DNA from: Methanobacteriota archaeon
GTDB lineage: Archaea; Thermoplasmatota; Poseidoniia; Poseidoniales; Poseidoniaceae
Assembly (NCBI GenBank): GCA_004195635.1
Contig: PSPT01000012.1
Span: 1 to 43,718, forward strand
Length of the DNA: 43,718 nucleotides
Reading direction: 5' to 3'
How positions within the stretch are numbered: position 1 is the first letter of the stretch; each line of letters opens with the position of its first letter. Below are positions 2,469 to 33,863 of this stretch, piece after piece. A program made the position numbers and the translations under genes. The notes under the pieces were generated by a model that worked only from the letters and a program-made list of their open reading frames with translations, searched no databases and was not told the origin of the DNA.

Positions 2469-4892
2469 TTACTCGATTTTCCTTATTGCTGGTGGGCTGA
2501 ATACTACAAAAAGTGCGATAAGAACGACTAACCCAAGTATTGTCCCACCCCACATTGCTGTTGGTGAAAGGCTAATTCCTTCGATGACTCCATCGTTACT
2601 ACCTCCTCCATTATCCTCGGGTGGGAATACATTTACTGCCTTGGTTAAGATATTGTTATCATCATCGGTTTCTGCAATGTCATTGCCCTTGTCAACAGTT
2701 GCCTTAAGCAATACTGCAGAATCATCAATTGGCACCATCCAAGCACAAGTTGCTGTCCGAACTTGTCCTGAGTTTATCTCAGCAATCGTTGTTGCTCTAA
2801 TTAATTGGCCATCCCCTTCACATCTAATTTCGATCAGTGTTGCACTTGCTTGCCCCGTATTGCGTACATGCACCTGAATCTCTACTTCAGTGCCCGCAAT
2901 TACATCTCCAATTACGTCAATCCCCTCAATAATCAATTCAGCAAATGCAGCCACTTCTATGCTGATGTGACGAACTGCGGTTAAATCTCCATCGTCAATA
3001 ATAATTTCAAGGTCAAAAGTACCTTGTTGTGTTGGAGTCAATACTAGATGACCTGCAGTTTCATCCCAAACTGCCCAAGAATATGATGTCCGAACATCCA
3101 ATGAAGAAACAGGTGAATCAATGTCAGAGAATGAAAGGTCAAGGAACGCGTATTCACCATGGCCAATAATCATGCTTGATTGAATTTGATCCAATACTGG
3201 AGCATCATTCACCGAAGCAACATTTACCGAGAAAGTGTCAAACCACTTATTGCCTGCCTCATCGGAAACTTCTATTGAAACAAGGGTGCTGCCACTTGTT
3301 TCTGAAAGTAATCGTATTCGCAATTGGTCGTCAACCATATCAACTTCAATGCTATCAGTATTGTCTTGAGATACTGAGACTCCCAAGTTTGCAGTTAATG
3401 TTCGATCATCACTGCAGGTAAGAAGCATTGGAATCAATCTGCCACCTCCGTCCTCGGTCAATTGCAGGTCCTCATTGGCCGTGCAAACTGGATTATCATC
3501 CCATTCAACATGGAATCCTCCGCTGATTGAAACTCCTTCAATTTGAACTAGAGCATCACCTGGTGTGCCATCGCTTTCCCAAGTATATACTGCAGCAAAC
3601 ACTAGGTCAAGGTCATCTCCATCAGCAGGTAGGTATTCGCCGACTTCAAGTGTTTGAGAAAAATTTCCATTGCTGACTAGGAATTCCTTGAAAATCAAAT
3701 CTCCTTCAAGTGTAAGTTGAACCCAAGATGCACTATTATTCAATCCAACATGATTTCCACTAACCATCCAGTCAACTGTTAATGTGGGGTCGTTGTAGTC
3801 AATCTTTAGGGATTCCAAACAACCTCCTGCTAATTCTATCTCAATTTTCAAGAATGCTCCCGTAGGCAGCATTTGAGTGTGCTCCAATACTAGTGTTGGA
3901 GATGTCCAGGAATTACCATCCTCGCTTACTGAAGCATAAATATCACCAGTCCAACTTCCAGTAGAGTGTATGCGCCCCCAGTTTTGGCTGGGTGGAAGAG
4001 AAAGTGATTCTGAATCCCAAGTGCCAGAAATACTTCCCGCAGATAACTCGAGCCCACAAGAAGATTGAATGATTTCTTCATGGCCTCCGGTTGCCAAATC
4101 TAATTCAACAACTGGCCATTCACCATTGACATACGACTCTGCAGTAGCCGATTCAATACCAAACCACATTGACTGAAAGGTAACGCGAAGTCCAACTGCG
4201 TCCAATTCTAAACGCGAGTCATCAGTCCCTCCAACTGAAACATAGTCTGCTGTAACCCAAAGGTCTGGTAATTCGGCCCAAGTGAGGTTTAAATCAGAAA
4301 TATCAATGCTCCAATAAGGTGAATCCAAATAGCTCAAAGCAGACTGTGTGTGACGGAACTCCTTAACCAGATCATTTGTACTGCCATTCCAATTGAGGGA
4401 AATCCGCACACTATCTTGCTGCAGGGCATCTGGGACGCTAAAAGAAAGAACTAATTCCATCTGGTATAGTGGATTAGAGGCTAGCCCATTTGTAGCAAAA
4501 GAACCAACTGTAATCTCAGGCCCTGCTGACCATGCATAATTGCCGTCGGCAGCACCAGTCGCATATCCATGCCCTTCAGTGGTATTGGTCGTTGCCCACA
4601 AGGTGGTTGATTGGGTATTCAAAGGTCTTTGGTGGGTAAAGGATAGATGGTTATCTGTCACCATTGCAGTAGTGTAGTCGGCAGAGGTACCAGGGGAATA
4701 AGCAACCTGCGTGGATAGATTCCAATCGTTTTGATCAGCAAATGGCGCAGGTGGTAATAAGTCAAAAGTATCTATGGAATGAACACTTCTCGCTGCAACA
4801 TTTCCGGTGGAAACAACAAGACTTGAAACGAAAATCAACATGACAAAGGTTGCACGAAAGGAGGCGGTGCTTTGCCGCATTGTTGTGCCCAT
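2469..4892 (-). CDS. large secreted, C-terminally anchored protein with CARDB domain
   Basis: The gene encodes about 807 residues from ATG 4892; an in-frame TTG at 4922 and an ATG at 4880 are alternatives. A signal peptide is clear (FVMLIFVSSLVVSTGNVAARS). The body is beta-rich and Thr/Ser/Asp-rich. In the longest-frame numbering, a cadherin/Ig-like segment with a VNDAPVLD linker precedes a CARDB-type adhesion domain at ~662-766 (NTGQASATLIEI, ETDDDNNI). A Gly/Asn linker and one transmembrane helix (~787-809) lead to a tiny basic end (AIRKIE). It should face outward and be tethered to the membrane. CARDB domains are usually adhesive or structural. No protease or glycosidase motif was recognised. 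Confidence 0.75.
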   Translation of the reverse strand: MGTTMRQSTASFRATFVMLIFVSSLVVSTGNVAARSVHSIDTFDLLPPAPFADQNDWNLSTQVAYSPGTSADYTTAMVTDNHLSFTHQRPLNTQSTTLWATTNTTEGHGYATGAADGNYAWSAGPEITVGSFATNGLASNPLYQMELVLSFSVPDALQQDSVRISLNWNGSTNDLVKEFRHTQSALSYLDSPYWSIDISDLNLTWAELPDLWVTADYVSVGGTDDSRLELDAVGLRVTFQSMWFGIESATAESYVNGEWPVVELDLATGGHEEIIQSSCGLELSAGSISGTWDSESLSLPPSQNWGRIHSTGSWTGDIYASVSEDGNSWTSPTLVLEHTQMLPTGAFLKIEIELAGGCLESLKIDYNDPTLTVDWMVSGNHVGLNNSASWVQLTLEGDLIFKEFLVSNGNFSQTLEVGEYLPADGDDLDLVFAAVYTWESDGTPGDALVQIEGVSISGGFHVEWDDNPVCTANEDLQLTEDGGGRLIPMLLTCSDDRTLTANLGVSVSQDNTDSIEVDMVDDQLRIRLLSETSGSTLVSIEVSDEAGNKWFDTFSVNVASVNDAPVLDQIQSSMIIGHGEYAFLDLSFSDIDSPVSSLDVRTSYSWAVWDETAGHLVLTPTQQGTFDLEIIIDDGDLTAVRHISIEVAAFAELIIEGIDVIGDVIAGTEVEIQVHVRNTGQASATLIEIRCEGDGQLIRATTIAEINSGQVRTATCAWMVPIDDSAVLLKATVDKGNDIAETDDDNNILTKAVNVFPPEDNGGGSNDGVIEGISLSPTAMWGGTILGLVVLIALFVVFSPPAIRKIE

Positions 4893-4961
4893 GTAACCGA
4901 TGCTGACGAGCCACTCCTTCAATGCGTTGGTGATTTGTTCTAGCAGTAGCCATACGGATGG

Positions 4962-10804: not shown

Positions 10805-13800
10805 ATGCACGCAATGCAGGTTTTGAATCCCTTTTCAAATGAACACCCGTCCGAAATGCACAAAGTCGGCACACGCAGCCAAATGGTTATGCGAGGGTGC
10901 CGGATTCAACAGATTCTAGTTTCGGCAATTTTTTTGCTGCTGGCAATTAATCCTTTGTTAATTGACAAAGCAACTCAGAATGATGGTGATTTTTTCGGCC
11001 CAGCAGGTATATTTTCTGACGGTGGAAGCGAGTCAAGTGATGATGGCAAAGATAAATCGCCCCGAGGGGGTAATGCGGTTCTTTCAGACGTTTCCACTTC
11101 TCAGGTATCATTTTACGAGGATGACTGGAATGACACAGGTGTTATCAAAGTTGGATTATCCGTTGGAGATGACGGAAAGGCAATCCTAAATCGGCCGGGG
11201 ATAACTTGGAACAATCCGCAATTTTCACTAGCAATAAGCCGAACTGGTGCAGCTGTAGTTGCTATCCCGGGCTCAAATCTCACTTGGATTATGGGTGGAA
11301 AACATGACCCTGATCCAATGCAAAGTGGAGATGAGTTTTTTTCTTCAGAAATTGAAATCTATAATATCGAAACTGAAACGACACAGAATATTGCACCGAT
11401 GCCTAAACCTGCTGCCTATGCAGATGCGGTAATAATGAATGACAATATTGTAGTAATTGGCGATTGGTGGCCGGGTTCGAGCAATCCTTCAATTACAAGT
11501 AAAGGCCAAGTGTTGATTTATAATTTCACCAACTCTTCATGGTGGAATGGCTCTTCAATGCCCAATGGTAAGGAGGTGGGACATGCCGGAGTCGCAGCTT
11601 TGGGGCAATATATCTATGTGGCGGGGGGTGTGAAAAATTCCCAAGGTACTGATGCCGTAAATCGGACTTTAAGGTATGACTTAGCAAATGATTCATGGGC
11701 CGAAGTGGCTCATATGAATCGCTCCAAATTTGCCCTCGCTCTTGTTCCCTTTCACGGCAAATTATATGCGCTTGGAGGGGGAGTAAAAACCATTTCGTGG
11801 GGTGCACCCACTCCTTCGAAAGTGATTGAAGTATATGATCCAACTTTGGATAATTGGACTCACCTTAATTCCACAATGCCCTTTACTTCTTCAGGATTGA
11901 GTGGTGTTGTAAGGCATGATGAGATTCTCGTTATGGGTGGAACTGGGGTCAAGAAAGTCGCCTCATGGAATCCAGAAACGGATACTTGGCGCAGTTTCCC
12001 AGATATGCTGGTCAGTTCAGCAGACAGCGCTGTTCTTGCAATAAATGGCACAGTTCATACATTTGGAGGAGATATGTCAAATAATCCTTACTCTGCATGG
12101 GGGGCTCAATTTATGGATGATATTCAACGAATTGAGAAGGTAATAATGATAGATGGCTTCCTTATCAGTAATATGCTTGATTTAAGGCCAGCGACTTCGG
12201 CAAATGCACAACTGCGTTCAATAAACATCAGTGCCATCGAGCCGGAAAACACCAGTGTGACTTTCCAAATTAGGTATGGATATGATGCAATTACAGCCGG
12301 ATTACGCTCGTGGGAAGGTCCGGATGGTACTTCACAATCTTGGTATGAAGCCGGCGAGTATGCCCTGAATGTACCTGGAATTACGAATTCCTTGCAGTAC
12401 AAGGTCCGCCTGGCGACAACAGCCCTTGATAATTGGATAATTCCTACACTTTCAAACGTAAGCGTTGAGGCTGCTCACGCTGCATTTTATGCGCCACTAC
12501 CGGCAGTCATTCACCCGTTGGGTCAGAGTTTCTTGGTGAGTACTGAGCACGCTGATGACGCAGGTACTGAATTTTGGCTGACTTTGCAACCTTCTGCTTC
12601 AGGAGGAGGGGGTATAGGTGCTGCGACCACCTTGATGCTGAATGGCAGTGTCATTTCAATCGATGATCCGCAAGGCTTGCTTAATTTGCTTCCTTCGGCT
12701 ACAACTTCAGTTGTTGGCGACACAACCTTTGTAGATTGGAATTTGAGTATCTCTGATACTCAGCCTTCTACTCATATCATGTTTAGGACTGGAAATTTAG
12801 TTCCAGGTCAAGATATTGTCAGCGCATTGAATTATCTAGAACTGGTGCCAGTTAGCATTGACCAAAATCTAGTTGTCGGTATTTCAAATTTGACAATAAA
12901 TAGTACTGCGGTTGAGATTCATGATGGTGCAGTAATGACTGACGGGCAAATTTTGGATATGCAAATAAGTGCTGCATTTGCTGACGGAAGTACAATAGAA
13001 CATGGTAATTTTGAATGGCGGGTAATCGGAACAACCGAATTAACAAATGGAACCGGGTGGGATAATTGGACTGAAGAATGGGGTATAGAGAATAATTCAC
13101 TGGTATTTTTGCCTAGCGAGGTATCCGGCTTCATCAACCTGCAACTGGAGGTTAGAACTGGATTAGGTATTGACCTTGTTTGGGATGGAGTTGATATTGA
13201 TATTACGAGCGATGGTGACAATGCCCTTCTTCTTTCGAGTGTACCTGCAAATGACTCATATGTTAATTCACATCAAATGCAAAATGTCACGGCATTGATT
13301 GGTGATAGCGGTGGCCCCGATCCTAATGAAACAGAGGTGTTCGTTTGGATTGAGGGTAATAACGACACCAACTCCGATGGTATAGCTGATTTTGGCGAAT
13401 ATTACTCGAGCCAATGGGGCCTTGAGGGTGGTAATGGACTTTGGTTTGTCAATCTCTCATTGGATGATTCAAATAATCCTGACCATGGCACCGTTAAAGT
13501 AAAGATAGAGGGAATGGATAAAGCAGGTCGACCAATTGGTGAAATGGGTAATGGAGTAATTGAATTTGAATGGCAAACACGCGATGCAAGACTTGCTCAA
13601 GTCCTCAGTCTGCGTAATCTTACTGAAGAAATCCTCGGGGTGGGGCAGTTAATTGAGCCTAATCAGATAGTTGGTTGGTCTATTGATCTTTCAGACTACA
13701 ACTCCGTTTCGGATATCACAGAACTGACTCTAACACTTGGTGGGGACGAGGACTTGGGTATACGTTATGTTGTTGAGACGGGAGTTTGTATGAATTTGGA

Positions 13801-15727
13801 TGGCCGATTGATTCCCGACAAGACCTCCTGTCATTCAACAATAATATCTGAAGTACTAACTTTGGATGTGGAGTTTGCAGCTGACTGGTCTTTCGAAAAC
13901 CAGGGGCTAATTCCTGGACAGATTGATATTTCTGCAGTCGATATTGATGGCGTTAATGATACCTGGAGTAAAAATTCATCATGGTATCTCTCTAAAGAGG
14001 TGACCTCAAACACAATATCTTTGACCGAGAACTCCGGCTTAGTACAGGGTTCTATAGTGAATGATTATTATGCAATGCCAAGTGATGAGGTAGCATGGTT
14101 AATAGAATTGATTCATAGCGATTCGGGGAAATTGGTAAATGGGCCATTTTCACTGTACTGGCAAGGTACCATTCAAGGTGAAACTTGGATAGGAGTTAGT
14201 ACAGTATTTGCAGAAAATGGTACAATTACTGCTGTTTTTCAACTGCCACAAAGTGAAGGTCTACTAGATGCAACAATCTCAATAAGAGACACTGCTGATT
14301 CAACTGAAATAGCATCTCTATATCTACCAGCAATCCATATTGATGGTACTGCACCAATTCTTCAAGATTCGCAAAAAGTAATCATGGAGAGCCGGTATGC
14401 ACTTAATGATGTATCAGTAATTGTCAATATATTAGAAGCGGAAAGTTGGACCGGTAATCTTTCAATCTCCTGTCAAGTAAGGGCGATTAGTGGCGATTGG
14501 TCTATTGTTACCTTCGCAGCCACCCCAGATACTATTTTTGGCGAATTGGTATTATTCCAATATGACATGGATATCCAAAACATTGGTGATGCTTCGCAAT
14601 TGTCTGACGTTGCAAATTTCGCTTGTTGGGTGGAGGGATTTGATGACGCAGGTAATGCTCTTGAATTAGTAGAAGATGGAAGTAATCACCAATCATCCCC
14701 ATGGTTTTCCCTGTTAATGCCATCTAACGGACCCGATCTTGACGTGAAATTGAATTGGAAGCAGTCGATGTCTGAATTGTCAATTGATAAGGAAATACTT
14801 GCTGAGGTTGTTGTGACGAATCTCGATGAAACAATAGACCGCCAATTTAATCTTACAATTTGGTTACAAAACGGTGAGGAAGAACCGGTAGTTGCATTCC
14901 GCAACACTCGCACAAATGGATTAGTGTCGGGGCGTGAGTGGATAATGGGATTCGGCATTACCCCCAATGCAACGGGCGATTGGACACTCACAGCAATGAT
15001 TGATAGTGGCGAAAAAATTGCTGAACTCAATGAATCAAATAACGTTGCAAGGGCAAATTTTTCGCTCAATCCAGAATCTCAAGGAATCATTGACATTCTC
15101 CTGTCACCTTCTGGGCTAGGCGGCATTTCTCTCTTAGTATTAGTTGCTATTACACTTGTAATTCTTCGCAATAAACGTGAGGCTGATGGCTCATTGACGA
15201 AGGCAAAATCTAGCGCAGGCCCAAGTTCAGGTCCGCCGAGCGGCCCTCCTGCCCCGCGTACAAAATCTAGTGAGGGCGACAAAGGTGGAAGGAAAGGACC
15301 CCCTCCAAATCTTCCGCACAAATCTACCTCTGCGGCTGTTTCCGAGGAGCTACTTCCCACAATGGACATCGCCAGTGCTGCTGATGCCTTGGCTTCTATA
15401 TCCCCTTCTATAGAGGATATTATGCCATCTTTTGGCGTGGATAATTCCGCCCAACTAATTTCACGAGCCGAAAATGATGGCGTTGAAGATGCTCAAGATG
15501 CAACAGACGTTACGACTGGCGATAATGGCAACGATGCAAATAATGCAAATACAAATTCCGTCGCTTCAAGTCCTTCTGTGCTCACGGTTGGGGCGACGGT
15601 TAGCGATTGGGAGCAACTGCCGTGGGGTGGCGAATATGAATATCGTCCCGAAGGCACTTTCTATGTTGGCGAAAATATTGGTATTTGGAAGTCAATTGAT
15701 GAGGGGAAATTTATTCGCGTTGAGTAA
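10805..15727 (+). CDS. giant surface protein: Kelch propeller, CARDB domain, cytoplasmic WE-LP-GGEY tail
   Basis: The 1640-residue protein has a long N region and a hydrophobic signal or anchor helix at about 37-53 (LVSAIFLLLAINPLLI). Kelch repeats span ~160-424 (YVAGGVKN, LYALGGGV, ILVMGGTG, HTFGGD, with W and Y at blade positions), likely a six-bladed propeller. A long beta-rich stalk follows, then a CARDB domain (~1309-1421; ELNESNNVARANFSL). One transmembrane helix (~1437-1455) precedes a Pro/Ser/Gly-rich cytoplasmic tail. The last 39 residues, starting with W1602, form a conserved-looking module (WEQLPWGGEY) also found at the end of the protein at 29628. It probably senses or binds outside and contacts a cytoplasmic partner. 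No catalytic motif was found. Confidence 0.85.
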   Translation: MHAMQVLNPFSNEHPSEMHKVGTRSQMVMRGCRIQQILVSAIFLLLAINPLLIDKATQNDGDFFGPAGIFSDGGSESSDDGKDKSPRGGNAVLSDVSTSQVSFYEDDWNDTGVIKVGLSVGDDGKAILNRPGITWNNPQFSLAISRTGAAVVAIPGSNLTWIMGGKHDPDPMQSGDEFFSSEIEIYNIETETTQNIAPMPKPAAYADAVIMNDNIVVIGDWWPGSSNPSITSKGQVLIYNFTNSSWWNGSSMPNGKEVGHAGVAALGQYIYVAGGVKNSQGTDAVNRTLRYDLANDSWAEVAHMNRSKFALALVPFHGKLYALGGGVKTISWGAPTPSKVIEVYDPTLDNWTHLNSTMPFTSSGLSGVVRHDEILVMGGTGVKKVASWNPETDTWRSFPDMLVSSADSAVLAINGTVHTFGGDMSNNPYSAWGAQFMDDIQRIEKVIMIDGFLISNMLDLRPATSANAQLRSINISAIEPENTSVTFQIRYGYDAITAGLRSWEGPDGTSQSWYEAGEYALNVPGITNSLQYKVRLATTALDNWIIPTLSNVSVEAAHAAFYAPLPAVIHPLGQSFLVSTEHADDAGTEFWLTLQPSASGGGGIGAATTLMLNGSVISIDDPQGLLNLLPSATTSVVGDTTFVDWNLSISDTQPSTHIMFRTGNLVPGQDIVSALNYLELVPVSIDQNLVVGISNLTINSTAVEIHDGAVMTDGQILDMQISAAFADGSTIEHGNFEWRVIGTTELTNGTGWDNWTEEWGIENNSLVFLPSEVSGFINLQLEVRTGLGIDLVWDGVDIDITSDGDNALLLSSVPANDSYVNSHQMQNVTALIGDSGGPDPNETEVFVWIEGNNDTNSDGIADFGEYYSSQWGLEGGNGLWFVNLSLDDSNNPDHGTVKVKIEGMDKAGRPIGEMGNGVIEFEWQTRDARLAQVLSLRNLTEEILGVGQLIEPNQIVGWSIDLSDYNSVSDITELTLTLGGDEDLGIRYVVETGVCMNLDGRLIPDKTSCHSTIISEVLTLDVEFAADWSFENQGLIPGQIDISAVDIDGVNDTWSKNSSWYLSKEVTSNTISLTENSGLVQGSIVNDYYAMPSDEVAWLIELIHSDSGKLVNGPFSLYWQGTIQGETWIGVSTVFAENGTITAVFQLPQSEGLLDATISIRDTADSTEIASLYLPAIHIDGTAPILQDSQKVIMESRYALNDVSVIVNILEAESWTGNLSISCQVRAISGDWSIVTFAATPDTIFGELVLFQYDMDIQNIGDASQLSDVANFACWVEGFDDAGNALELVEDGSNHQSSPWFSLLMPSNGPDLDVKLNWKQSMSELSIDKEILAEVVVTNLDETIDRQFNLTIWLQNGEEEPVVAFRNTRTNGLVSGREWIMGFGITPNATGDWTLTAMIDSGEKIAELNESNNVARANFSLNPESQGIIDILLSPSGLGGISLLVLVAITLVILRNKREADGSLTKAKSSAGPSSGPPSGPPAPRTKSSEGDKGGRKGPPPNLPHKSTSAAVSEELLPTMDIASAADALASISPSIEDIMPSFGVDNSAQLISRAENDGVEDAQDATDVTTGDNGNDANNANTNSVASSPSVLTVGATVSDWEQLPWGGEYEYRPEGTFYVGENIGIWKSIDEGKFIRVE

Positions 15728-22450: not shown

Positions 22451-25400
22451 ATGGGCGCAGTTAATGCTGGCAAGGCAATATTGGTTCTCGCCTTGATGCT
22501 CCTCACCTCGCAATCGACTTTATTGACATCCTCTAACATCCAAACTCAGGAAAGCATACCTACAAATTTAACTCCTGTTTATGATGGTGAAAGTATTATT
22601 GAAACTCCTCAATCAAATGAAAACTCCATCCCTCGAATAACCGTTTTCACCCCTTCTCTTGAGCACTGGACAGATCAAGGTTTTTTTCTTGTCGAAGTTG
22701 TAGTAATCACTTCCGATATCCTTGCACTACACCATTGGCAGGGGCGAAATAATCTCCTCCCCACGCAAGCGGAGGGGCAAAACAATGCGGCTGGAACTGA
22801 TTTTCCAAACGCTGGGACCTCCTCCCGCCTCGTGCCTTCAAATGTTGAGTCTCTGGCTGGTGTATTACAGCATCGCTCTCTCACTCTCCCCGGCTGGCAA
22901 GTTGCGAAATTGGCTTCTGTTGCTGGCACTTTAGCAGTATTTCCGGTTCTTGAGGACCCCGCTCCTGCTTCTGGTTTTCCCGAAACATGGGATTCTTCAG
23001 TTGATGAAAATGGCTTTGATGATGGTGATGCAGGTTCGGCGGGTGAAGGTTCAGAGGCTGACCCTGAAACTTGGGCCGCTAAGGATTTACATGGCGCAAC
23101 TAATGCTTGGCAGCGTAATGTCACTGGAAACGGAGTAAATGTGGCTATCGTTGATAGTGGTGTTGATTTCGCTCATCCTGACTTAAATGGCACTCAAGCC
23201 CGAGTAAATGATGCCTCCAGTCCTTGGGACGGCTGGCCGATAATGTTTGACCCACGTTCAATCAATGAATGGATTGAAGATGGTGATACATATCCTTCTG
23301 ATGGTAATTCATGGTACTCAGACACTTCAACCACCGATGTGGATGGCGATGGAGATGGTTTTTTGGATTCATCAGGATTGAATATTTCTGGACTTAATTC
23401 CGTTTCGGGTGTATTCCACATAGGCGAGCACCCCGACAATAATTTGCAATCAAGAGTTGGCGGAGATGTTGATATTATTGTCGTTGATGAACAAGTCAAC
23501 TCATCATATGATACAGTATATGTCGACCTAGATGGAGACGGTCAATTCTCCGATGAAGTACCTATGCGAAAAGGTTCCGAAACCGCAGGACTTGATCTCA
23601 ACAGTGATGGCCTTTGGGACCGTTCGGCAGGGCTGATATACTTCATTGCCGATGGCAACTTAAGTCTGCCTTACGCACCAACTTTCTCGGCTCGTCAAGG
23701 TTTGTCTGACCGCATCCCTAACAACGGTGATTTAGTCGCCTTCATGATAAACGAGAACGGTGGGCCAGCCGGAAGCCACGGCACTTTATGTGCCTCCTCA
23801 GTTTCTGCACAAGGAATAATTGCAAGTGGGAAAGTGCAAGGAATGGCACCAAATGCAAGTGTGATTGCAGTTGCAAATTATTACGCAGGCGGCTCAGGTT
23901 TTGATGCTTGGAGATTTGTCGCCGAAGGGTATGATGGTCAAACCGATAGTGGAGACGAAGCGCAAATCGGTTCTTTCTCTTTTGGATATTCATCTGTTGT
24001 CGATGCAGGTAGCGACCAAAATTCTCTCTACTTAGACTGGCTAACTCGAGTTCATTCTCAAAATACTACCTATCTCGTTGCCTTAGGAAATGGAGGTCAC
24101 GGTTATGGCACAGTTGCTAGCCCAGGTGGAGCTGCCGGTGTGGTTAGTGTAGGCGCATTTTCCTCGCGTACAAGTGGATGGAATGTGGCCACATATGGCG
24201 AGAGTGCATCATGGTCCGACCGCGGACCAAATAGTCAAGGTAGAATGGACCCCGACCTCGTCACTATTGGTTGGTCGGCAACTGGTGATGTAACTTTGAA
24301 TGAAAAAACCGATGCTAATTCTGCTTACCGCTCTTGGTCTGGTACATCTTTGGCTACACCTGTTGCGGCTGGATTAATGGCTCTGCTTTATGATGCCTGG
24401 TTTGTGGAACATGGTTCATTTCCCAATTCCCAACTAATCCGTGATTTGGCTATGTCAACTGCTGAAGACCGTGCCTATGATGGAAATGTGCAGGGCGCCG
24501 GTTGGTTTGATGCCGACCGAGCAACTGCTTCAATTTCCGGCGAGAATGGTACTTGGTGGACAGAGCCTGGTGCATGGATGCCTGGGCAAAATAACGGTGC
24601 TCACCGTTTATCGAATATTAATTGGCTCTTGCCGGGCGGAAATGATACTTTGCAATATAGTATTCATAACCCGACTCAAGATATTTTGAACCTGCAGATG
24701 AATGGAACTACTTGGCAGGCAACCTCTCATTTCAATCAATCGTGGGTCTCGCAGGAAAGTGGTGGTGATTGGGACGGCTATCAGTCCTCAATGCCTGATA
24801 TTGTCGTGCCGATATTAATTCACGGTGATGCCAATAACACCTCAATTGCCAGCGATGCTACTTTGGTTAGAGCAAGAGCGGTTATTGATGCGGCCGGATT
24901 TGATGGAGACAAAAATTATGCCAGCGAAAATAATGTTTATGTTCGCATTTATCGTTGGAATGATACCGATGGCGATGGATCTTGGTGGACAGACTCTGAT
25001 GGTGATGGATTAGTCGATAGTGGAGAATGGGAATCAAGTGGGGAATATTCAACGATTACTGAACACATGTATACCTCCTCACAGGTTGAAGCAAGGGTTG
25101 GAAATCCATGGGATTTGCCCGCTGATGGGATCCTACTCGGAGTATTTAGACGAAATGTAAGAAGCAGCCAAATTGACCCTTTAACTATCAATTATGATAT
25201 TACTGGATTTAGTAAGCGAATTGATAGTTGGTTGACCGTTCCTATTGCTATCACAGTGCCCCCTATGTCCACAATCACCGTCCCAATAGATATTGATATT
25301 CCACTAAATGCAACCCCTGGGCTTCATTTGTCATCCGTAGGAATACTTGATCAGAATAATCACTCGTGGAATTTACAGGTTGTAGCGACGATTGCTGGTT

Positions 25401-28400
25401 CTGGGCCTACCTCTTGGCAGGCACCATTAATAGACGGTAATTTGAGCAATCAAACTCTCTACCGAGAAACTTGGATGCAGGGTGCACAACGTTGGGGCTG
25501 GCGCGCTGAATCGGGAGATTGGAAGGCGTTTGCAGTGGAATGGCCAAGTGGTCTTGTCAATGGAACGATTATTGTCGATGTTGATTGGGACGACAACATA
25601 TATACGGATATTGATGCATTTTGGCTTTCCCAAACACCTCACCCCTACTATCAAGATGCTCCGGATGCTTATGGGCCATCGGGCATGGCAATTGAGAGTG
25701 CTTCGGTGAATAAGCATAGAGGCTCTGGTATTTGGGGGCATCAAACCAGCACTGGCTCATCGCATGAAATGCTTACTGCTAACCCTTCATCGGGGCTCAA
25801 ACAGTTGATTCTTCATTCAACTACCCATGGAGTTTCAACAAATGACAATCCAATAAATGTTAGTATTGGTTTTGCTGCTGCTATTGCTGGTAATTTGACC
25901 TATACTACTGATGACTGGAGGCAAAACAATATTTCTGATAGTCTAGTTTTTGCTAGCACAATAGATATTTCAGCAAGCGATATGGATGCTTGGGGTTGGA
26001 CTCAACCAATGTATTGGCCGAATGAAACTGCATATCAGGATACTGTGGGGAGCCTAAGTACATCCTCATATATCCGTGAAGTGCAATTACAGGATTTGCG
26101 CAAATTCCGCGTGGAAATTGATTCTCACACCCCCATGGATGACCTTGACCTGTATGTCTATCGTGATAATAATGGCAATGGTGCTCTCGACTGGGGTAGC
26201 GAACAAGTAGGTTCGTCGGGCAATGGAAATAGCGACGAGGAAGTTAATCTTGAAAATGTGCAAGCAGGTACATTTTGGATCGTAGTTCACGGTTATGAAG
26301 TACCTGCCTTAAACACTCAATTTTGGTTGAGGGCAACTTCAATTGGTGGCAGTGGAATTAGTGTTGATGATTGGAATGAACTGAACGAATCACAGATTTT
26401 GGCTCTCTGCCCAGTTGGTTGTGCAGCATTAGGTGGAGCAATGCCAAAGGTTGCTTGGCAGGTTAATCACACCATGCAATTGCCTGAATCCGCCGGACAG
26501 TGGCAGGGTTACTTTGAGTTAGTATTAGCAAACGGTGGTGGAGTGACAATTCCTTATCAATTTAATTTGCAAGAGGGCGCACCGAGTGTTGAATGGTTTG
26601 GGGCCATTGACGGACAACAGAATAATACTGCAGTTAATCTAAGTGCATTCTTCTCAGATAATCAAGCCGGATTCAATATTTCGGGTATTGATTTGTTCAG
26701 TATAATCAAGAGTAAATGGGATATGCCAAACATATCTGTTGACTTAGCTGAAATTTTGCAACAGGTAAATGGAACCTTATTGAATGGGACTCAAATTAAC
26801 TTGAGTGCAGAACTACTCGCTTGGGATGACTATAATCGCGTGATAAGGCCTACGGATTACTTGCCATATGACACTTGGAATCTTCAAAATTGGTGGGCTA
26901 TGAATGAACAATCGGGATTTGTAGAAGACTATGCGTTACTTGGTGATTATGACTTTGATGCACAATTGATGGGTGGAACTGCTTGGGTTGAAGATGGGTT
27001 ACGAGGTAATGTGGTAGATTTTGACGGGCTACCTGGTTCGCACCTCACAGTTTCCTCCTCAGCGCGTAATTCGGCAAAAGATTATTCTCAGGGTTTACAG
27101 TTGTTTGAAGATACTACGATGGCATTTTGGATAAACACAACGCAAATGGGCAACGATACTCCTTTGGATGCACCGAAAATAGCCGGTTATGACGGACTCA
27201 TTGGCAATGATTTACACTTTGGATACATTAATTCCTCTGGGCACATCGGAATTGCCCGATATAATGGAATTCCGGCAATTTCTACTACAAATATTTCGGA
27301 TGGCCAATGGCACCACATCACATTGGTAAGAACTGGTATCTCAGGAACGATGCAGGTATTTGTTGACGGAGTGATGGAAAGTCAATCAAGTGGGTTTGTT
27401 GATTGGGCTTCAAGTGGTTGGTCCGAAATGAGTCACATTGGTTGTACGTCATCTGTTCCATCGACCACCTGCTTTGAGGGGATGCTTGATGAAGCACGTA
27501 TTTATTCAACTTTCTTTAGTGAGGAAGAAGTCGGAATTATTTACAATGCAACAAGGCATGATTTACCTCCTCCAGCAATGGATTACACTTTGCGAAATTT
27601 ATCAGTAAACATTACTTTGCCTAATGGGCAACTTATTCAGGGATTGTATTCTAGTCGGGCAATAATAGGTGATCTCTCTGGGCAGACTTCTTCAGCAATG
27701 ATAGGTATTGTATATGATACTGATTTCCCGATTTTCTCCCTTGAAATAGAGTCCCATTTGGTTAATACAACTTCAATTGCCATTTCCCTATTGGCTGAAA
27801 ACAACTTGGATATTTCTATTAATTCAGTGCCCGTTTATCCGCAAGAGTTTGCAACTTCTGCAGAACAAAATTGGACAACATTGGCAACTATTGGGCGCCC
27901 GATGTGGTATAATCAAACTTTCAATCTTCCACTTGAAGGATCAAACGAATTCCTAATTTCTTCCACAGATCTTGCTGGAAATGTCCGCAATAGTTCTTTC
28001 TATATTATTCGTGATACAACTCCTCCTCCACTTTCATTAAACCACAGTTATGAGTTTGAAGTAATAAATGAAACTGAATTATCAATTGAGGTAATGACCG
28101 AAGTAGGTGTTGATTTATGGGTGCAAGGGCAGAACTTGGCAAGTCCAAATACCGCTGATTGGTTCTCAGTAGATATTTCCCTCGAAGAAGGGCAAAACAT
28201 TGTGGATGTGTTCGTGCGCGACCCTGCTGGTAATTGGGCAAGCGAACAATTGCAATTTAATATTGATAGTATTATGCCAGTTGTTGAATTATTATCTCCC
28301 AATCACAACGAAACATTACGCCATCACATGGTTGCCCTTCGCTGGAATTCCTCAGAGCAAACAATAGCCCATGTAGCCGTTGATGGTGGCGATTGGCTGA

Positions 28401-29566
28401 GTGTGCCCGGACAGGCAGGATTAGCAGATTGGGTAATCACTCTTGATGTGGTAGGATGGCATGAATATTGTCTGCGATTTGAAGATGAAGGGCGTAATGA
28501 ATTAATATTATGTCGCAGTTTTGCTATTTCGGCTGAGGATTATTCACCCGTATTTAGTCCAAATTGGCAGGGGAATATGACAAATAATTCCAATTTATTT
28601 GGCACTTTATATCTCGGTCCAGAACAAGTTTGGGAATTATATTATTGGCATAATGAGGGCTGGACGAGGGTGCATACTGGTATTTCTCCTATGGGTGGTA
28701 ATCACACAATTCCATTCTCATTAATTGAAGGGATAAACCAATTCAAATTGATTGCTGGCGGTTTTGGAATTGAGGAAACTTGGCTCAGTAATGTCACTCT
28801 AGATTCACTTGACCCACTAATTAATATCACTTCTCCAGTTGCTAATTCTCGTTTTGCTTTCTCTGATGGACGTCCATTTGACTTATGGATACGAGGTGAA
28901 ACTGAAGCCGGATTGATTGTAAATTGCTCTGAATATCCGAGTGGCCATTCCTCGCAGGCAGTTGCTGATTCCACTGGGTTGTTTTCCGTTGCCCATCCGA
29001 GACAGCGCCCTGATGATGTCTATGATGGAATGGAGTCAGTAATTACCTGTTCAGTTGAGGATGCAGCTGGTAATGCAGCAAGTACTGAACTTTCCATGAC
29101 ATTTGATGGCACATCTCCAAATGGGGCTGCAGACTTTATTGTTGAGGGACAAAATCTTTGGCTTTCTTGGGAATTATCAACAACCGATGATTTAGATTCT
29201 TGGCGCATTACAATTGTACATGATGGTGTGTTGTATTATAGCGAGAGTGGTACATTTAACGGCTCATGGCCCGATGAGTTCATTGAATTTGGCGAGGTTG
29301 AGGCGGGTGATTGGAATGTCACATTGATGGCATGGGATTCAGCCGGAAATATGCTACTAATTGAAAATGGGGCCGTGGTAGAAGAACCAGTAACTGTCCT
29401 TGATACTTTTGCAAATGTTCCAGGAGGGACATTCGGGGTTTTTGCTATGGTCTTCATCCTCCTCCTAATATTGGTTTATTTTGACCGCCAAAGAAAGAAA
29501 CAGGCAAAGGAAGACCTATTGCTTGATTCGCTAGCCCAAGAGCCGATGGAGCATTATTTTCAATAG
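22451..29566 (+). CDS. giant subtilisin-like (S8) surface protease with LamG domain and C-terminal anchor
   Basis: The 2371-residue protein starts with a signal peptide (KAILVLALMLLTSQSTLL). The S8 triad is visible: Asp235 in VAIVDSGVDFAHPDL, His443 in GSHGTLCAS and Ser633 in SGTSLATPVAAG, with the oxyanion Asn in ALGNGG. About 200 residues separate Asp and His, including an acidic DVDGDGDGF loop that may bind calcium. Later come a PPC-like domain (~1208-1303; DDLDLYVYRDNNGNG), a LamG/concanavalin-like domain (~1475-1702; DGQWHHITLVR, FVDGVM, MLDEARIY) and several Ig-like repeats. One transmembrane helix (~2331-2349) and a short charged cytoplasmic tail end it. It likely digests external protein while tethered to the cell. 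Confidence 0.92.
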   Translation: MGAVNAGKAILVLALMLLTSQSTLLTSSNIQTQESIPTNLTPVYDGESIIETPQSNENSIPRITVFTPSLEHWTDQGFFLVEVVVITSDILALHHWQGRNNLLPTQAEGQNNAAGTDFPNAGTSSRLVPSNVESLAGVLQHRSLTLPGWQVAKLASVAGTLAVFPVLEDPAPASGFPETWDSSVDENGFDDGDAGSAGEGSEADPETWAAKDLHGATNAWQRNVTGNGVNVAIVDSGVDFAHPDLNGTQARVNDASSPWDGWPIMFDPRSINEWIEDGDTYPSDGNSWYSDTSTTDVDGDGDGFLDSSGLNISGLNSVSGVFHIGEHPDNNLQSRVGGDVDIIVVDEQVNSSYDTVYVDLDGDGQFSDEVPMRKGSETAGLDLNSDGLWDRSAGLIYFIADGNLSLPYAPTFSARQGLSDRIPNNGDLVAFMINENGGPAGSHGTLCASSVSAQGIIASGKVQGMAPNASVIAVANYYAGGSGFDAWRFVAEGYDGQTDSGDEAQIGSFSFGYSSVVDAGSDQNSLYLDWLTRVHSQNTTYLVALGNGGHGYGTVASPGGAAGVVSVGAFSSRTSGWNVATYGESASWSDRGPNSQGRMDPDLVTIGWSATGDVTLNEKTDANSAYRSWSGTSLATPVAAGLMALLYDAWFVEHGSFPNSQLIRDLAMSTAEDRAYDGNVQGAGWFDADRATASISGENGTWWTEPGAWMPGQNNGAHRLSNINWLLPGGNDTLQYSIHNPTQDILNLQMNGTTWQATSHFNQSWVSQESGGDWDGYQSSMPDIVVPILIHGDANNTSIASDATLVRARAVIDAAGFDGDKNYASENNVYVRIYRWNDTDGDGSWWTDSDGDGLVDSGEWESSGEYSTITEHMYTSSQVEARVGNPWDLPADGILLGVFRRNVRSSQIDPLTINYDITGFSKRIDSWLTVPIAITVPPMSTITVPIDIDIPLNATPGLHLSSVGILDQNNHSWNLQVVATIAGSGPTSWQAPLIDGNLSNQTLYRETWMQGAQRWGWRAESGDWKAFAVEWPSGLVNGTIIVDVDWDDNIYTDIDAFWLSQTPHPYYQDAPDAYGPSGMAIESASVNKHRGSGIWGHQTSTGSSHEMLTANPSSGLKQLILHSTTHGVSTNDNPINVSIGFAAAIAGNLTYTTDDWRQNNISDSLVFASTIDISASDMDAWGWTQPMYWPNETAYQDTVGSLSTSSYIREVQLQDLRKFRVEIDSHTPMDDLDLYVYRDNNGNGALDWGSEQVGSSGNGNSDEEVNLENVQAGTFWIVVHGYEVPALNTQFWLRATSIGGSGISVDDWNELNESQILALCPVGCAALGGAMPKVAWQVNHTMQLPESAGQWQGYFELVLANGGGVTIPYQFNLQEGAPSVEWFGAIDGQQNNTAVNLSAFFSDNQAGFNISGIDLFSIIKSKWDMPNISVDLAEILQQVNGTLLNGTQINLSAELLAWDDYNRVIRPTDYLPYDTWNLQNWWAMNEQSGFVEDYALLGDYDFDAQLMGGTAWVEDGLRGNVVDFDGLPGSHLTVSSSARNSAKDYSQGLQLFEDTTMAFWINTTQMGNDTPLDAPKIAGYDGLIGNDLHFGYINSSGHIGIARYNGIPAISTTNISDGQWHHITLVRTGISGTMQVFVDGVMESQSSGFVDWASSGWSEMSHIGCTSSVPSTTCFEGMLDEARIYSTFFSEEEVGIIYNATRHDLPPPAMDYTLRNLSVNITLPNGQLIQGLYSSRAIIGDLSGQTSSAMIGIVYDTDFPIFSLEIESHLVNTTSIAISLLAENNLDISINSVPVYPQEFATSAEQNWTTLATIGRPMWYNQTFNLPLEGSNEFLISSTDLAGNVRNSSFYIIRDTTPPPLSLNHSYEFEVINETELSIEVMTEVGVDLWVQGQNLASPNTADWFSVDISLEEGQNIVDVFVRDPAGNWASEQLQFNIDSIMPVVELLSPNHNETLRHHMVALRWNSSEQTIAHVAVDGGDWLSVPGQAGLADWVITLDVVGWHEYCLRFEDEGRNELILCRSFAISAEDYSPVFSPNWQGNMTNNSNLFGTLYLGPEQVWELYYWHNEGWTRVHTGISPMGGNHTIPFSLIEGINQFKLIAGGFGIEETWLSNVTLDSLDPLINITSPVANSRFAFSDGRPFDLWIRGETEAGLIVNCSEYPSGHSSQAVADSTGLFSVAHPRQRPDDVYDGMESVITCSVEDAAGNAASTELSMTFDGTSPNGAADFIVEGQNLWLSWELSTTDDLDSWRITIVHDGVLYYSESGTFNGSWPDEFIEFGEVEAGDWNVTLMAWDSAGNMLLIENGAVVEEPVTVLDTFANVPGGTFGVFAMVFILLLILVYFDRQRKKQAKEDLLLDSLAQEPMEHYFQ

Positions 29567-29627: not shown

Positions 29628-32600
29628 ATGAACGGGAAACCACTATTACTATGTCTAATGGTGTATTCGGATAGTTTAGGTGAGACTAGCATGGCTTTGA
29701 AACTAATATTTTCTTGGTTGCGCCACCCCCCCGAATCTAAAGATAGTAATTCACATTCATTCCAAGCACAAAAGAGGGCAATATTCCTCGTAGCCCTAAT
29801 GATTGCGAGCGTAATGGTTGTCTCTTTTCCCGTAAGTGCAAACGATGCTGATAGTGATAGTATACCTGACATTCTCGACCAATGTCCATATTCTTGGGGC
29901 AATGCTACTTCTGTTGATGGCGAAGGTTGTCTTGATAGCGATGGGGATGGGCTGGCCGATTGGGAAACAGGAGTCATTAAGGATTGGCCCTCTGCCTCTT
30001 CGGAATACTACAACTCAGTAGGAAGCGTTTCAAGGGCAGTAGCATGGAATCCCAATGGAGCGTCATATGCGAGCGGAGGATCTTCTGGAATATTAGAAAT
30101 ATTTGATGTACCAGGGAATACAATTGCGGTATTGGCTAATTTTAATGATGATATACGTGATTTGGATTACTCCGCCGATGGAAGTATGATATGTGCATCT
30201 GGTGGAAATGCTGAAGCATATGTTTTGGATTCAACTAGTGGAAGCATTATTTACAATTTGAGCACTGCACATTTCATCGAAAACACGGCGCATGCTTGCC
30301 ATTTTAGTCATGACGGTCAATATGTTTTCACAGGAGGGAGCGATTCGGCAATATATCAATATTGGATGTCAAATGGCACCCTGCATAAAAATTATTCTAC
30401 ACCCGGCACCGTTTATGATATTGATACAACTCCTGATGGTTCATTATTTGTTGCTAGTAGTGGCGATAGCGTCTTACTTTATTATGCTCACAATGGTACT
30501 GAAATTAATTCATTCGATAATTCAAGTCAATCCATCCTTTCAGTTGAATTCTCTCCCACCGGGCGTGATTTCATTACTGGTTCTGCAGATAATTACTGGC
30601 GAGCATACGGTATCTTAAATCAAACATTATTTGCATACGGAAACGGTGGTTCGGATGTATATGACATTCAGTTTTCTTCAGACTCAAGTACGATGATACT
30701 CGCTAGAGGTAGTAGAAGTGAATTGTATTATTACGATGTTCAGGACAATTATTCATATATTGGGGATTTTGGCAGCTTCGGCTCAAGCTGGAGTAACCGC
30801 GGCACTCGTGATTTAGCAATTCATCCCGATGATGCAATGTTATTAATCGCATCACGTAGAGGGCGAACTTACCTATATGTTGAGCCTTCTGGATATCTAC
30901 AAATTCACGGAGATTGGACTGTAAATGTAATGGAATCTCATTGGCAAAATAGTTGGCCCAGCGATGGAAGAATTCTCAATTATGTCAATTCAACAACATT
31001 TGAATCCACTCAATATCTCTGTGACAATGATGGTAGTATTGCTGCTTTGACTGAAGGCCATAATCCCATTTGGGTTGACCAAGATCCAAACTTTTCCACA
31101 AATGGTAGAGTTGATTGTAAGGGTACTGGGGAATCACTAATTGAGTTCCCGATAGGAAATGTGGCTGGCGCATTTGCAGTCAAGGCAGGCGGGGATACAC
31201 AAGCCTGTATTGAAACATTAGGCGGCCTAAGTATCGGGCAATTGCGTTGGATGATGTCCTCCAAATCAGGCAGTGAGTTACAAAATACTGGCGAATACCC
31301 AGGGATTGACATTTCCTCAGTAGTCAAGGATAATGATGGTGACCAGTATCGTGAATGGTCTGATTTAGACAATTCCTGTGCCAACAGCGAAATAATTCTT
31401 GTTCATAGATGGGAAAACCGAAGTGAAGTGGGGATGTTGAAGGAGCAATTCCTTTGCAACCATTGTGCGGAAAAGGATTCATTATATCCTAATACAAATG
31501 ACCGCCCACGCGTAACTTATGGCCTGCAAAATGAGGTTATTGACTCATTGACTGGCCCCTCTAGTGAAACTTTGATTGCTTTTTCTGAACTTGAATATTT
31601 GATGGATTATAATAATGGGACTTTCTTGGTTCCAATCGTAAATAATTGGACTCATAGTGCGGCGGATGCTTTGGCTGAAGGAGGTGGAAGCGAATCCTCC
31701 TATAGCGTCCTTGGTGCCAACTCGATAGTATTACCTTCAAGTGAAAATGTGACAAATAATTCATGGCCAATAAAGTCATATTTGAGGGCACTTATCCATG
31801 AAGATGACCTTGGAGATAAAATGAATGTTGCGAATTGGTTTTTGACCGAAACAGGACAAATGGCCATGGATAATGGGGGATATACTCGCTTATCCGTCCA
31901 CGACCGGGTATTATCATGGGCGAGAATTGGAATTGACATGATACATCTATTGCCAGATACTGACCTTGATGGTGTATGGGATGGAGATGATGATTGCCCC
32001 AATACTATTACTGGGCTATCTGTTGATGCGGTCGGTTGTGCTGATAATCAACTTGATAGTGACAATGATGGGGTCACTAATGATATTGACGATTGCGTTG
32101 ATGTATATGGCACCGCTACAGAATCTCCATACATTGCTTGCCCTGATTCGGATGGTGATGGTTGGGCTGATATTGATGATGCATTCTCAAGTGACCAAAG
32201 CCAATGGCGAGACCAAGATGGCGATGGCTTTGGCGATTCCACATTGAATAATGCAACCACGCCAGACGATTGCCCAACAACTGTTGGCAACTCAACAATA
32301 GACCGTTATGGTTGCGTTGATTCCGATAGTGATGGTTACTCCAACGCTGATGAAACTCACCTTGCTCACCCAATGGGCATTGCCGATGCATTCCCTGACG
32401 ACTCAAGTCAATGGAGGGATGCAGACTCCGATGGTTTTGGAGACAACTACACTTGGAATGGAACAACGGATGCTCGCACTGATGAGAACGGTGACGCATT
32501 TCCTTTAGAATCAACTCAATGGCATGACCAAGATGGTGATGGCTTCGGAGATAACTCGTCAGGTTTTGCAGCCGATTCTTGCCCAACTATCCTTGGCACT

Positions 32601-33863
32601 TCTACTGAGAACGGTACTCGCGGATGTGCTGATTCTGATGGTGATGGTTGGGCCGATTCCGTCGATCATTTACCATCCAATCAATGGCAATGGTTTGACA
32701 GTGATGGTGATGGCTATGGAGAAAATCTCGACGGCCAATATGCAGATTGGTGTCCTAGCACACCACTTGATGAAATTGCTGATGTCAATTTCGAAGGTTG
32801 TGGGCCTTCCGAAAGAGACTATGATGCCGATGGGATTACAGATAACTTTGATCTTTGTTTAAATACTTCACCATTTGAGGCAACTAAGGTTGATGAGAAT
32901 GGTTGCGCTCCTTCAGAGCGCGATGCTGACTCCGATGGAGTCTCGGAGGACAACGACTTCGATGATTCCGACCCAACTCAATCTTCAGATACAGATGGAG
33001 ATGGTTATGGTGATAATATTACTGGTACCAATGGAGACCAGTGCCCATGGCAAAATGGTAACTCATCCAAGGATAGAAGAGGTTGTATTGATTCAGACGG
33101 GGACGGATATTCTAACCCTGAATCAGTATGGACGACTGACGATGGTGCCGACCGATTCACTTCTGAAAAGACTCAATGGGCGGATTCCGATGGAGATGGT
33201 TATGGTGATAATTGGGGTGACTCTTCATGGAACGAAAGTCGTGTGTCAGGTCTTCCTGGTGAATTTATTTTTGGTGCCAAAAAAGCAGATCGGTGTCCGA
33301 CTACGAATTACATTTTCGCAGATAGTAATGGTTGCCCCCCTTCAAACAGTGGCTCAGGTGGCAACTTAAATGTTGATGGCGCAGGCAGTGGAAATGATGG
33401 TTCTTCAAACACCTTGTTAATTATTGTAGTTATTGCTGGAGTATTATTGTTGGGTGGGCTTGGTTTTGCCATAACAATTTTACTTCGCAAACCAAAATCT
33501 TCAGCCTCAAAGGGACGTAGGAAGAAAAAGAAAAGAAGCAAATCTTCTTCACAAGGTAAGAAAACCTCTTCTCCTTCAGGTGAAGATGGAATAAAGACGG
33601 AGGAAAAAATCCAACCTGAAATTGTAGATATTGAAACACCATCAGAATCACCTTCCGATGCTGAGGCTTCATCTACTGGTGAGCCTCAGGCCTCCGATAC
33701 AGTTGCGGGAGATTCCCCACAAACGGTGTCCTCTTGGGAAGAGTTGCCTTCCGGTGGAGAATATACCGACCCTGATGCTGATGGAGCTGTTTGGTACAAA
33801 GATGGAACCGGTATTCATTGGTTCCAAAATGCTGATGATTCTTGGAGTCAATGGTCAGATTGA
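29628..33863 (+). CDS. giant surface protein: WD-like propeller, thrombospondin type 3 repeats, cytoplasmic WE-LP-GGEY tail
   Basis: The 1411-residue protein has an unusually long N region and then an export helix (~50-68, FLVALMIASVMVVSFPVSA). A single TSP3-like motif (DADSDSIPDILDQCP) leads into a WD40/YVTN-like propeller (~125-430; VAWNPNGASYASGG, CHFSHDGQYVFTGG, VEFSPTGRDFITGS). A region of ~340 unrecognised residues follows, then an array of thrombospondin type 3 calcium-binding repeats (~775-1225; DSDGDGWADIDD, DQDGDGFGDN). A transmembrane helix (~1263-1285) and a Lys/Arg-rich cytoplasmic segment lead to a terminal 42-residue module from W1370 (WEELPSGGEY). The same module ends the protein at 10805. 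It is probably a calcium-stiffened receptor or adhesin. An alternative start is ATG 29691. Confidence 0.85.
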   Translation: MNGKPLLLCLMVYSDSLGETSMALKLIFSWLRHPPESKDSNSHSFQAQKRAIFLVALMIASVMVVSFPVSANDADSDSIPDILDQCPYSWGNATSVDGEGCLDSDGDGLADWETGVIKDWPSASSEYYNSVGSVSRAVAWNPNGASYASGGSSGILEIFDVPGNTIAVLANFNDDIRDLDYSADGSMICASGGNAEAYVLDSTSGSIIYNLSTAHFIENTAHACHFSHDGQYVFTGGSDSAIYQYWMSNGTLHKNYSTPGTVYDIDTTPDGSLFVASSGDSVLLYYAHNGTEINSFDNSSQSILSVEFSPTGRDFITGSADNYWRAYGILNQTLFAYGNGGSDVYDIQFSSDSSTMILARGSRSELYYYDVQDNYSYIGDFGSFGSSWSNRGTRDLAIHPDDAMLLIASRRGRTYLYVEPSGYLQIHGDWTVNVMESHWQNSWPSDGRILNYVNSTTFESTQYLCDNDGSIAALTEGHNPIWVDQDPNFSTNGRVDCKGTGESLIEFPIGNVAGAFAVKAGGDTQACIETLGGLSIGQLRWMMSSKSGSELQNTGEYPGIDISSVVKDNDGDQYREWSDLDNSCANSEIILVHRWENRSEVGMLKEQFLCNHCAEKDSLYPNTNDRPRVTYGLQNEVIDSLTGPSSETLIAFSELEYLMDYNNGTFLVPIVNNWTHSAADALAEGGGSESSYSVLGANSIVLPSSENVTNNSWPIKSYLRALIHEDDLGDKMNVANWFLTETGQMAMDNGGYTRLSVHDRVLSWARIGIDMIHLLPDTDLDGVWDGDDDCPNTITGLSVDAVGCADNQLDSDNDGVTNDIDDCVDVYGTATESPYIACPDSDGDGWADIDDAFSSDQSQWRDQDGDGFGDSTLNNATTPDDCPTTVGNSTIDRYGCVDSDSDGYSNADETHLAHPMGIADAFPDDSSQWRDADSDGFGDNYTWNGTTDARTDENGDAFPLESTQWHDQDGDGFGDNSSGFAADSCPTILGTSTENGTRGCADSDGDGWADSVDHLPSNQWQWFDSDGDGYGENLDGQYADWCPSTPLDEIADVNFEGCGPSERDYDADGITDNFDLCLNTSPFEATKVDENGCAPSERDADSDGVSEDNDFDDSDPTQSSDTDGDGYGDNITGTNGDQCPWQNGNSSKDRRGCIDSDGDGYSNPESVWTTDDGADRFTSEKTQWADSDGDGYGDNWGDSSWNESRVSGLPGEFIFGAKKADRCPTTNYIFADSNGCPPSNSGSGGNLNVDGAGSGNDGSSNTLLIIVVIAGVLLLGGLGFAITILLRKPKSSASKGRRKKKKRSKSSSQGKKTSSPSGEDGIKTEEKIQPEIVDIETPSESPSDAEASSTGEPQASDTVAGDSPQTVSSWEELPSGGEYTDPDADGAVWYKDGTGIHWFQNADDSWSQWSD
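31955..33300 (+). repeat. array of thrombospondin type 3-like repeats
   Basis: Many copies of a D-x-D-G-D-G-(W/F/Y)-G/A-D module, often followed by a C-P or Q-W element, encode calcium-binding loops. The DNA copies (GATGGTGATGG-type) are diverged, so this is an old coding repeat and not a CRISPR or satellite. Confidence 0.85.

Follow-up and report, generated by a model that had tools for sequence, protein, structure and literature searches.

A small C-terminal module shared by unrelated giant surface proteins of Poseidoniales and predicted to face the cytoplasm

The two host genes

The window, meaning the whole stretch of 43,718 nucleotides that was analysed, carries on its plus strand two genes for giant surface proteins that end in similar tails. 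The first gene, P0001 (10805..15727, +), encodes a Kelch/CARDB protein of 1640 amino acids, in which an N-terminal hydrophobic signal or anchor (10907-10963, +) is followed by a Kelch propeller, CARDB, a transmembrane helix, a linker and the C-terminal module. Pfam assigns Kelch_6 with an E-value of 2.5e-21 and CARDB with 3.7e-6. The transmembrane helix comprises residues 1436–1454 (15110..15166, +; Kyte-Doolittle mean 2.48 over 19 residues) and is followed by the basic sequence RNKR. The linker contains the motif RKGPPP (15290..15307, +) and a short Ala/Leu stretch, ASAADALASIS (15371..15403, +); similar stretches can be made out by eye in several other Kelch-family linkers. The module itself, in its Kelch-type form, has 44 residues, ATVSDWEQLPWGGEYEYRPEGTFYVGENIGIWKSIDEGKFIRVE-stop (15593..15724, +), and is placed on the cytoplasmic side by prediction.

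The second gene, P0002 (29628..33863, +), encodes a WD40/TSP3 protein of 1411 amino acids, composed of a signal (29778-29840, +), a WD40 propeller, TSP3 repeats, a transmembrane helix, a linker and the module. The WD40 match in Pfam is strong (8.1e-14) and that to TSP_3 is weak (0.012). The helix spans residues 1264–1282 (33417..33473, +; Kyte-Doolittle mean 2.86), the part of the linker that follows it is rich in lysine and arginine (33486-33542, +), and the TSP3-type copy of the module, also predicted to be cytoplasmic, forms the last 47 residues, QTVSSWEELPSGGEYTDPDADGAVWYKDGTGIHWFQNADDSWSQWSD-stop (33720..33860, +). Both modules were located from the translations, sequence profiles and AlphaFold2 models. 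Just upstream of P0002 lies a giant subtilase of 2371 residues (22451-29566) with Ig-like and weak laminin-G matches, which carries no module and stops soon after its helix.

Homology and limits of the module

The initial annotation had aligned the tails of these two proteins, and the alignment holds at the place and in the frame described: a single BLASTP comparison of tail against tail gives 14/31 identities with E = 3e-6, and a score as high as the real one did not arise in 20,000 shuffles. The window's genome contains four copies of the module, the other two being at C25:26091 and C31:39656. A profile built from these four tails returns, by construction, all of them at E <= 1e-22, with the window copies at about 1e-23 to 1e-25, and a profile of 44 sequences, the majority of them taken from other genomes, recovers the window copies at 8e-19 and 5e-18. 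Judged by sequence comparison, the two tails are homologous modules of about 45 residues. Their location was given correctly at the outset, but each begins some five residues earlier than had been marked (15593 instead of 15608, and 33720 instead of 33735), and the module includes a fourth strand that reaches the stop codon.

Predicted fold

The consensus of the module is roughly WExLPxGGxY...G.xWYxx..G..W....DGSW, with many conserved aromatic residues, and the module is strongly acidic, with a mean net charge of about -7. For both subtypes AlphaFold2 predicts a four-strand meander preceded by a short turn in the WE-x-LP segment, with a mean pLDDT of 90.1 for the TSP3-type (alignment of 44 sequences) and 91.2 for the Kelch-type (39 sequences). 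The models are confident for both tails, and the module is apparently a small folded four-stranded β meander.

The view that the module corresponds to no named domain has stood up to wider searching. Sequence searches of Pfam, NCBIfam and the PDB gave no credible match, and the best Foldseek hit against the PDB and viral models had E = 0.26 and was judged to be due to chance. A Pfam scan of 44 members up to an E-value of 10 had neither WW nor SHOCT among its matches. None of the 44 module sequences, scanned apart from the helix regions, matched an NCBIfam CTERM model, and the open-access literature yielded no description of this module.

There is another aromatic tail, shorter than the module, with the approximate pattern DEDGxEWYxDxxGxWWxRxPxxxDW, which is similar to the module's second half. 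It ends the 283-codon frame of L017, apparently a soluble cytosolic protein whose gene family is also found in L209-L211, and it also ends two further giant membrane proteins of the same genome, L078 and L079, whose open frames have 3012 and 1786 codons.

Position in the hosts and side of the membrane

Among the 59 C-terminal hosts with a clear transmembrane helix, which are mutually related so that the counts given here are not independent events, the median number of residues after the module is 0, six or fewer are present in 56, and the linker between helix and module has 26–118 residues. Lysine and arginine are more frequent after the helix than before it in 55/59 of these hosts (means 2.85 versus 0.49). 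N-glycosylation sequons number 988 outside versus 704 expected, and 21 inside versus 27 expected. The initial description of the tails as following one transmembrane helix and a low-complexity linker holds, and the distributions of charge and of sequons both support its placing of them in the cytoplasm.

The extreme C-terminal placement claimed for the module applies to most hosts, but a second class of multi-span and single-span membrane proteins carries it at the N-terminus, ahead of the first of 1 to 8 transmembrane helices. These proteins (L192-L200, L206 and L208), in which the module is followed by an acidic linker and the helices, comprise a multi-span family without a Pfam name and a few single-span proteins. 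Around their first helix the positive residues are mostly on the module side: this is clearest in the single-span proteins and holds in several others, and the signal is weak in the remaining multi-span ones. The module is predicted to be on the cytoplasmic side in the C-terminal hosts and apparently also in the N-terminal ones; because of the latter, what all hosts share would seem to be the module's cytoplasmic side and not its place at the C-terminus.

Host families and conservation

Clustering of the host exteriors yields seven C-terminal families of several members each, without mutual similarity at the thresholds used, together with one such N-terminal family and six singletons. Some of these single-linkage clusters may join multidomain relatives. 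The claim that the external parts are unrelated holds beyond the two proteins: no fewer than seven families of C-terminal hosts are unrelated to one another. According to Pfam, their representatives contain Kelch and CARDB domains, TSP3 repeats with WD40 or SBBP propellers, bacterial-type TSP3, repeated CARDB, a GDSL lipase or DUF4886-like domain, or TSP3 with a Gln/Pro-rich linker, and one has no Pfam matches. A single host combines RCC1 with ephrin-receptor-like repeats. None of the hosts examined places the motif in a secreted context.

The grouping of the modules coincides with the host family in 64/66 cases, with a few resemblances across families (L205, L184), and the attachment of the module is for this reason considered ancient and mostly vertical. 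The module appears usually to have been inherited with its host and not freely swapped, so the description of it as a plug-in is apt over deep time only.

In Kelch orthologues from different genera the module is 40–60% identical, the exterior 28–32%, and the helix and linker can hardly be aligned. Since the module is here conserved above the exterior, selection for an intracellular role is indicated. The TSP3 group is less uniform: in close orthologues the module is not better conserved (about 55% for both module and exterior), at larger distances it holds 48–50% where the exterior drops to about 30%, and in one remote pair the order is reversed (module 33%, exterior 39%).

Distribution

The module is found in 55/58 genomes of the window's family, in 41/60 genomes of its order with a 31-sequence profile, and in 60/293 genomes of the phylum with the 44-sequence profile, all 60 belonging to the window's order, Poseidoniales; it is thus present in many hosts and not just in the two proteins of the window. 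A genome that has the module carries 1–5 copies, usually each on a different host, and some genomes have just one. More than half of the sampled sister-family genomes lack the module, and its function is consequently not essential across the order.

A scan of 84,980 named species genomes with one sequence pattern, which remote relatives would escape, gave 29 loci, all of Poseidoniales-type or unspecified Euryarchaeota bar two; L116 is a near-identical relative (92% in the tail). Two loci recorded under bacterial names were rejected as outsiders. L121 (AH-558-G13, ‘Deltaproteobacteria’, JAOMAZ010000013.1) matches G043, a genome of the window's order, at 100% identity across 3,135 bases and is probably that same genome under a wrong record title. 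L139, a 3.3-kb contig of an ‘Ilumatobacteraceae’ MAG, shows 88% identity with Thalassarchaeum betae along its length and is on that ground regarded as misbinned. No module copy was confirmed in viral contigs. As far as searched, the module is limited to Poseidoniales (Marine Group II archaea). These are described as the planktonic archaea of highest abundance in ocean surface waters and as being without cultured representatives (PMC6461757), which makes their surface organisation hard to study.

Proline motifs in the linkers

The motif [KR]GPP is present in all nine Kelch-family linkers (9/9), with 0.17 expected after shuffling. In one cluster of the sister family, PPPPG[FYL] occurs upstream of the module in 11/14 linkers (0.01 expected), and the other three have the looser form PPVP-x-G. 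Linkers of the TSP3 group are mostly without motifs of the KGPP or PPPPG type. In the sister-family linkers of L126, L127 and L133, repeated PPPPPGF units lie between the helix and the module, their number varying by species. PMC12171015 describes a PPG-hydrophobic motif to which a GYF protein of eukaryotes binds; the GYF_2 domain, a candidate reader of PPG, was found in 0/60 genomes of the order.

Possible functions of the module

The occurrence of the same inner-side domain on many unrelated membrane proteins, mostly giant surface proteins, suggests docking to a common partner. The module is most likely, with a probability of about 0.58, a docking handle for one shared cytoplasmic partner, where we infer the partner, its sharing among the hosts and its purpose. 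Tethered to the inner face of the membrane by a flexible linker, the module would be recognised by one cytosolic or membrane-peripheral partner, which would localise, cluster or regulate surface proteins with unrelated exteriors (Kelch, WD40/TSP3, TSP3, CARDB, GDSL, RCC1) and would also serve some multi-span membrane proteins. The homology of the modules, the at least seven unrelated host families, the predicted membrane side, the conservation of the Kelch module and the same predicted fold in both subtypes argue for docking; against it stands the fact that the candidates searched (archaellin, Band_7 and GYF_2) gave no partner. The subtypes track host family, so they could bind different partners. 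The equal conservation of module and exterior in close TSP3-group orthologues and the absence of the module from over half of the sampled sister-family genomes also count against the docking model.

The archaellum was rejected as the partner, as archaellin and the module are not associated within the sister family: among 30 sister-family genomes, four have both archaellin and the module, nine the module only and four archaellin only. Band_7 (flotillin-type) did not emerge as the partner either; its near-universal presence makes it of little use as evidence, and it is undetected in two module-bearing sister-family genomes. Thrombospondin and flotillin genes have earlier been linked to adhesion in Poseidoniales (PMC6461757).

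It is also conceivable, as a tentative extension of the docking model, that Poseidoniales possess an intracellular adaptor system of their own, in which a β domain without a known fold relative would connect giant adhesin-like proteins and some multi-span proteins to one cytoplasmic scaffold, possibly by way of the tails' own proline motifs, in a role comparable to that of adhesion-receptor tails inside eukaryotic cells.

A separate partner would be unnecessary if the modules paired with each other, within or between subtypes, and so gathered the surface proteins in patches. The presence of 1–5 copies per genome on usually different hosts and the flexible linkers of 26–118 residues would suit such self-association, and small aromatic β sheets may pair edge to edge, but the net charge of about -7 disfavours packing of like with like and some genomes have a single copy, which makes this explanation rather unlikely. 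Somewhat less probable again is a role in biogenesis or quality control, where the module would cap long exported proteins and mark their completion, stop transfer, protect the cytoplasmic end or be read by a protease or chaperone. In exported proteins of 1000–2000 residues it nearly always stands directly ahead of the stop codon, as such a tag should, but the N-terminal copies on other membrane proteins cannot report completion, and the neighbouring giants at 22451-29566 and 2469-4922 end soon after their helix with no module.

The proline motifs raise the question of whether the module itself reads them, as a WW-, GYF- or OCRE-like binder of KGPPP or PPPPPGF in the linkers of its hosts that would join the tails together or connect them with other proline-rich proteins. 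The frequency of these motifs in the Kelch-family and sister-family linkers, their likeness to the cited GYF ligand, the lack of a GYF_2 reader in the 60 genomes and the conserved aromatics on a small predicted β sheet are all consistent with such a reader. We nevertheless consider it improbable, as hhalign gives a probability of 1.2% for WW and 0.1% for OCRE (with tiny reference sets), Pfam gives no match, and most TSP3-group linkers are without the motifs. Least probable by far, and already disfavoured, is an extracellular or cleaved C-terminal sorting signal comparable to PGF-CTERM; the C-terminal place on surface proteins would fit it, but the module is on the positive-inside side, 26–118 residues past the helix, is conserved and predicted to be folded, matches no NCBIfam CTERM model and has N-terminal copies.

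If the docking model is preferred to these alternatives, the module marks those giant surface proteins that would connect to the cell interior, and the question of the partner reduces to what 45 residues bind. Applied to metagenome-assembled genomes, a profile of the module would likewise flag surface proteins that are connected to the cytoplasm.

Comparison with known systems

SHOCT is a helical domain. PMC3581485 presents it as a short domain of unresolved function that is found, mostly at the C-terminus, on a wide variety of host proteins. The module is likewise short, mostly C-terminal and found on many different hosts, but SHOCT is widespread in bacteria, whereas the module is restricted to Poseidoniales, predicted to be all-β and located on transmembrane proteins.

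The WW domain resembles the module in size, in an LPxG close to its beginning, in a strand that contains G-x-(Y/W)-Y, in a Trp further on and in its small antiparallel sheet. The module differs in its predicted four strands instead of three and in the predicted WE-x-LP turn preceding the sheet; no conserved Pro follows its last conserved aromatic residue, and the Trp-Pro clasp is absent. Membership in the WW family was rejected, with no Pfam WW match among the 44 members and the low hhalign probability obtained against six reference sequences.

OCRE domains contain repeated D-x-x-G-x-Y-Y units. PMC5127646 and PMC12171015 describe OCRE and GYF as readers of proline motifs with small folds rich in aromatic residues. 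The module, small and aromatic-rich as well, differs from both in that Pfam scans returned neither of them and no fold match was significant, and OCRE membership was rejected, the hhalign comparison in this case resting on two reference sequences.

The anchors of the PGF-CTERM type consist of a motif, a helix and a short basic tail, and are processed outside. They resemble the Poseidoniales module in being a common C-terminal element of many unrelated archaeal surface proteins, and differ from it in that the module, whose side and fold are predicted, would be intracellular, folded and positioned far beyond the helix.
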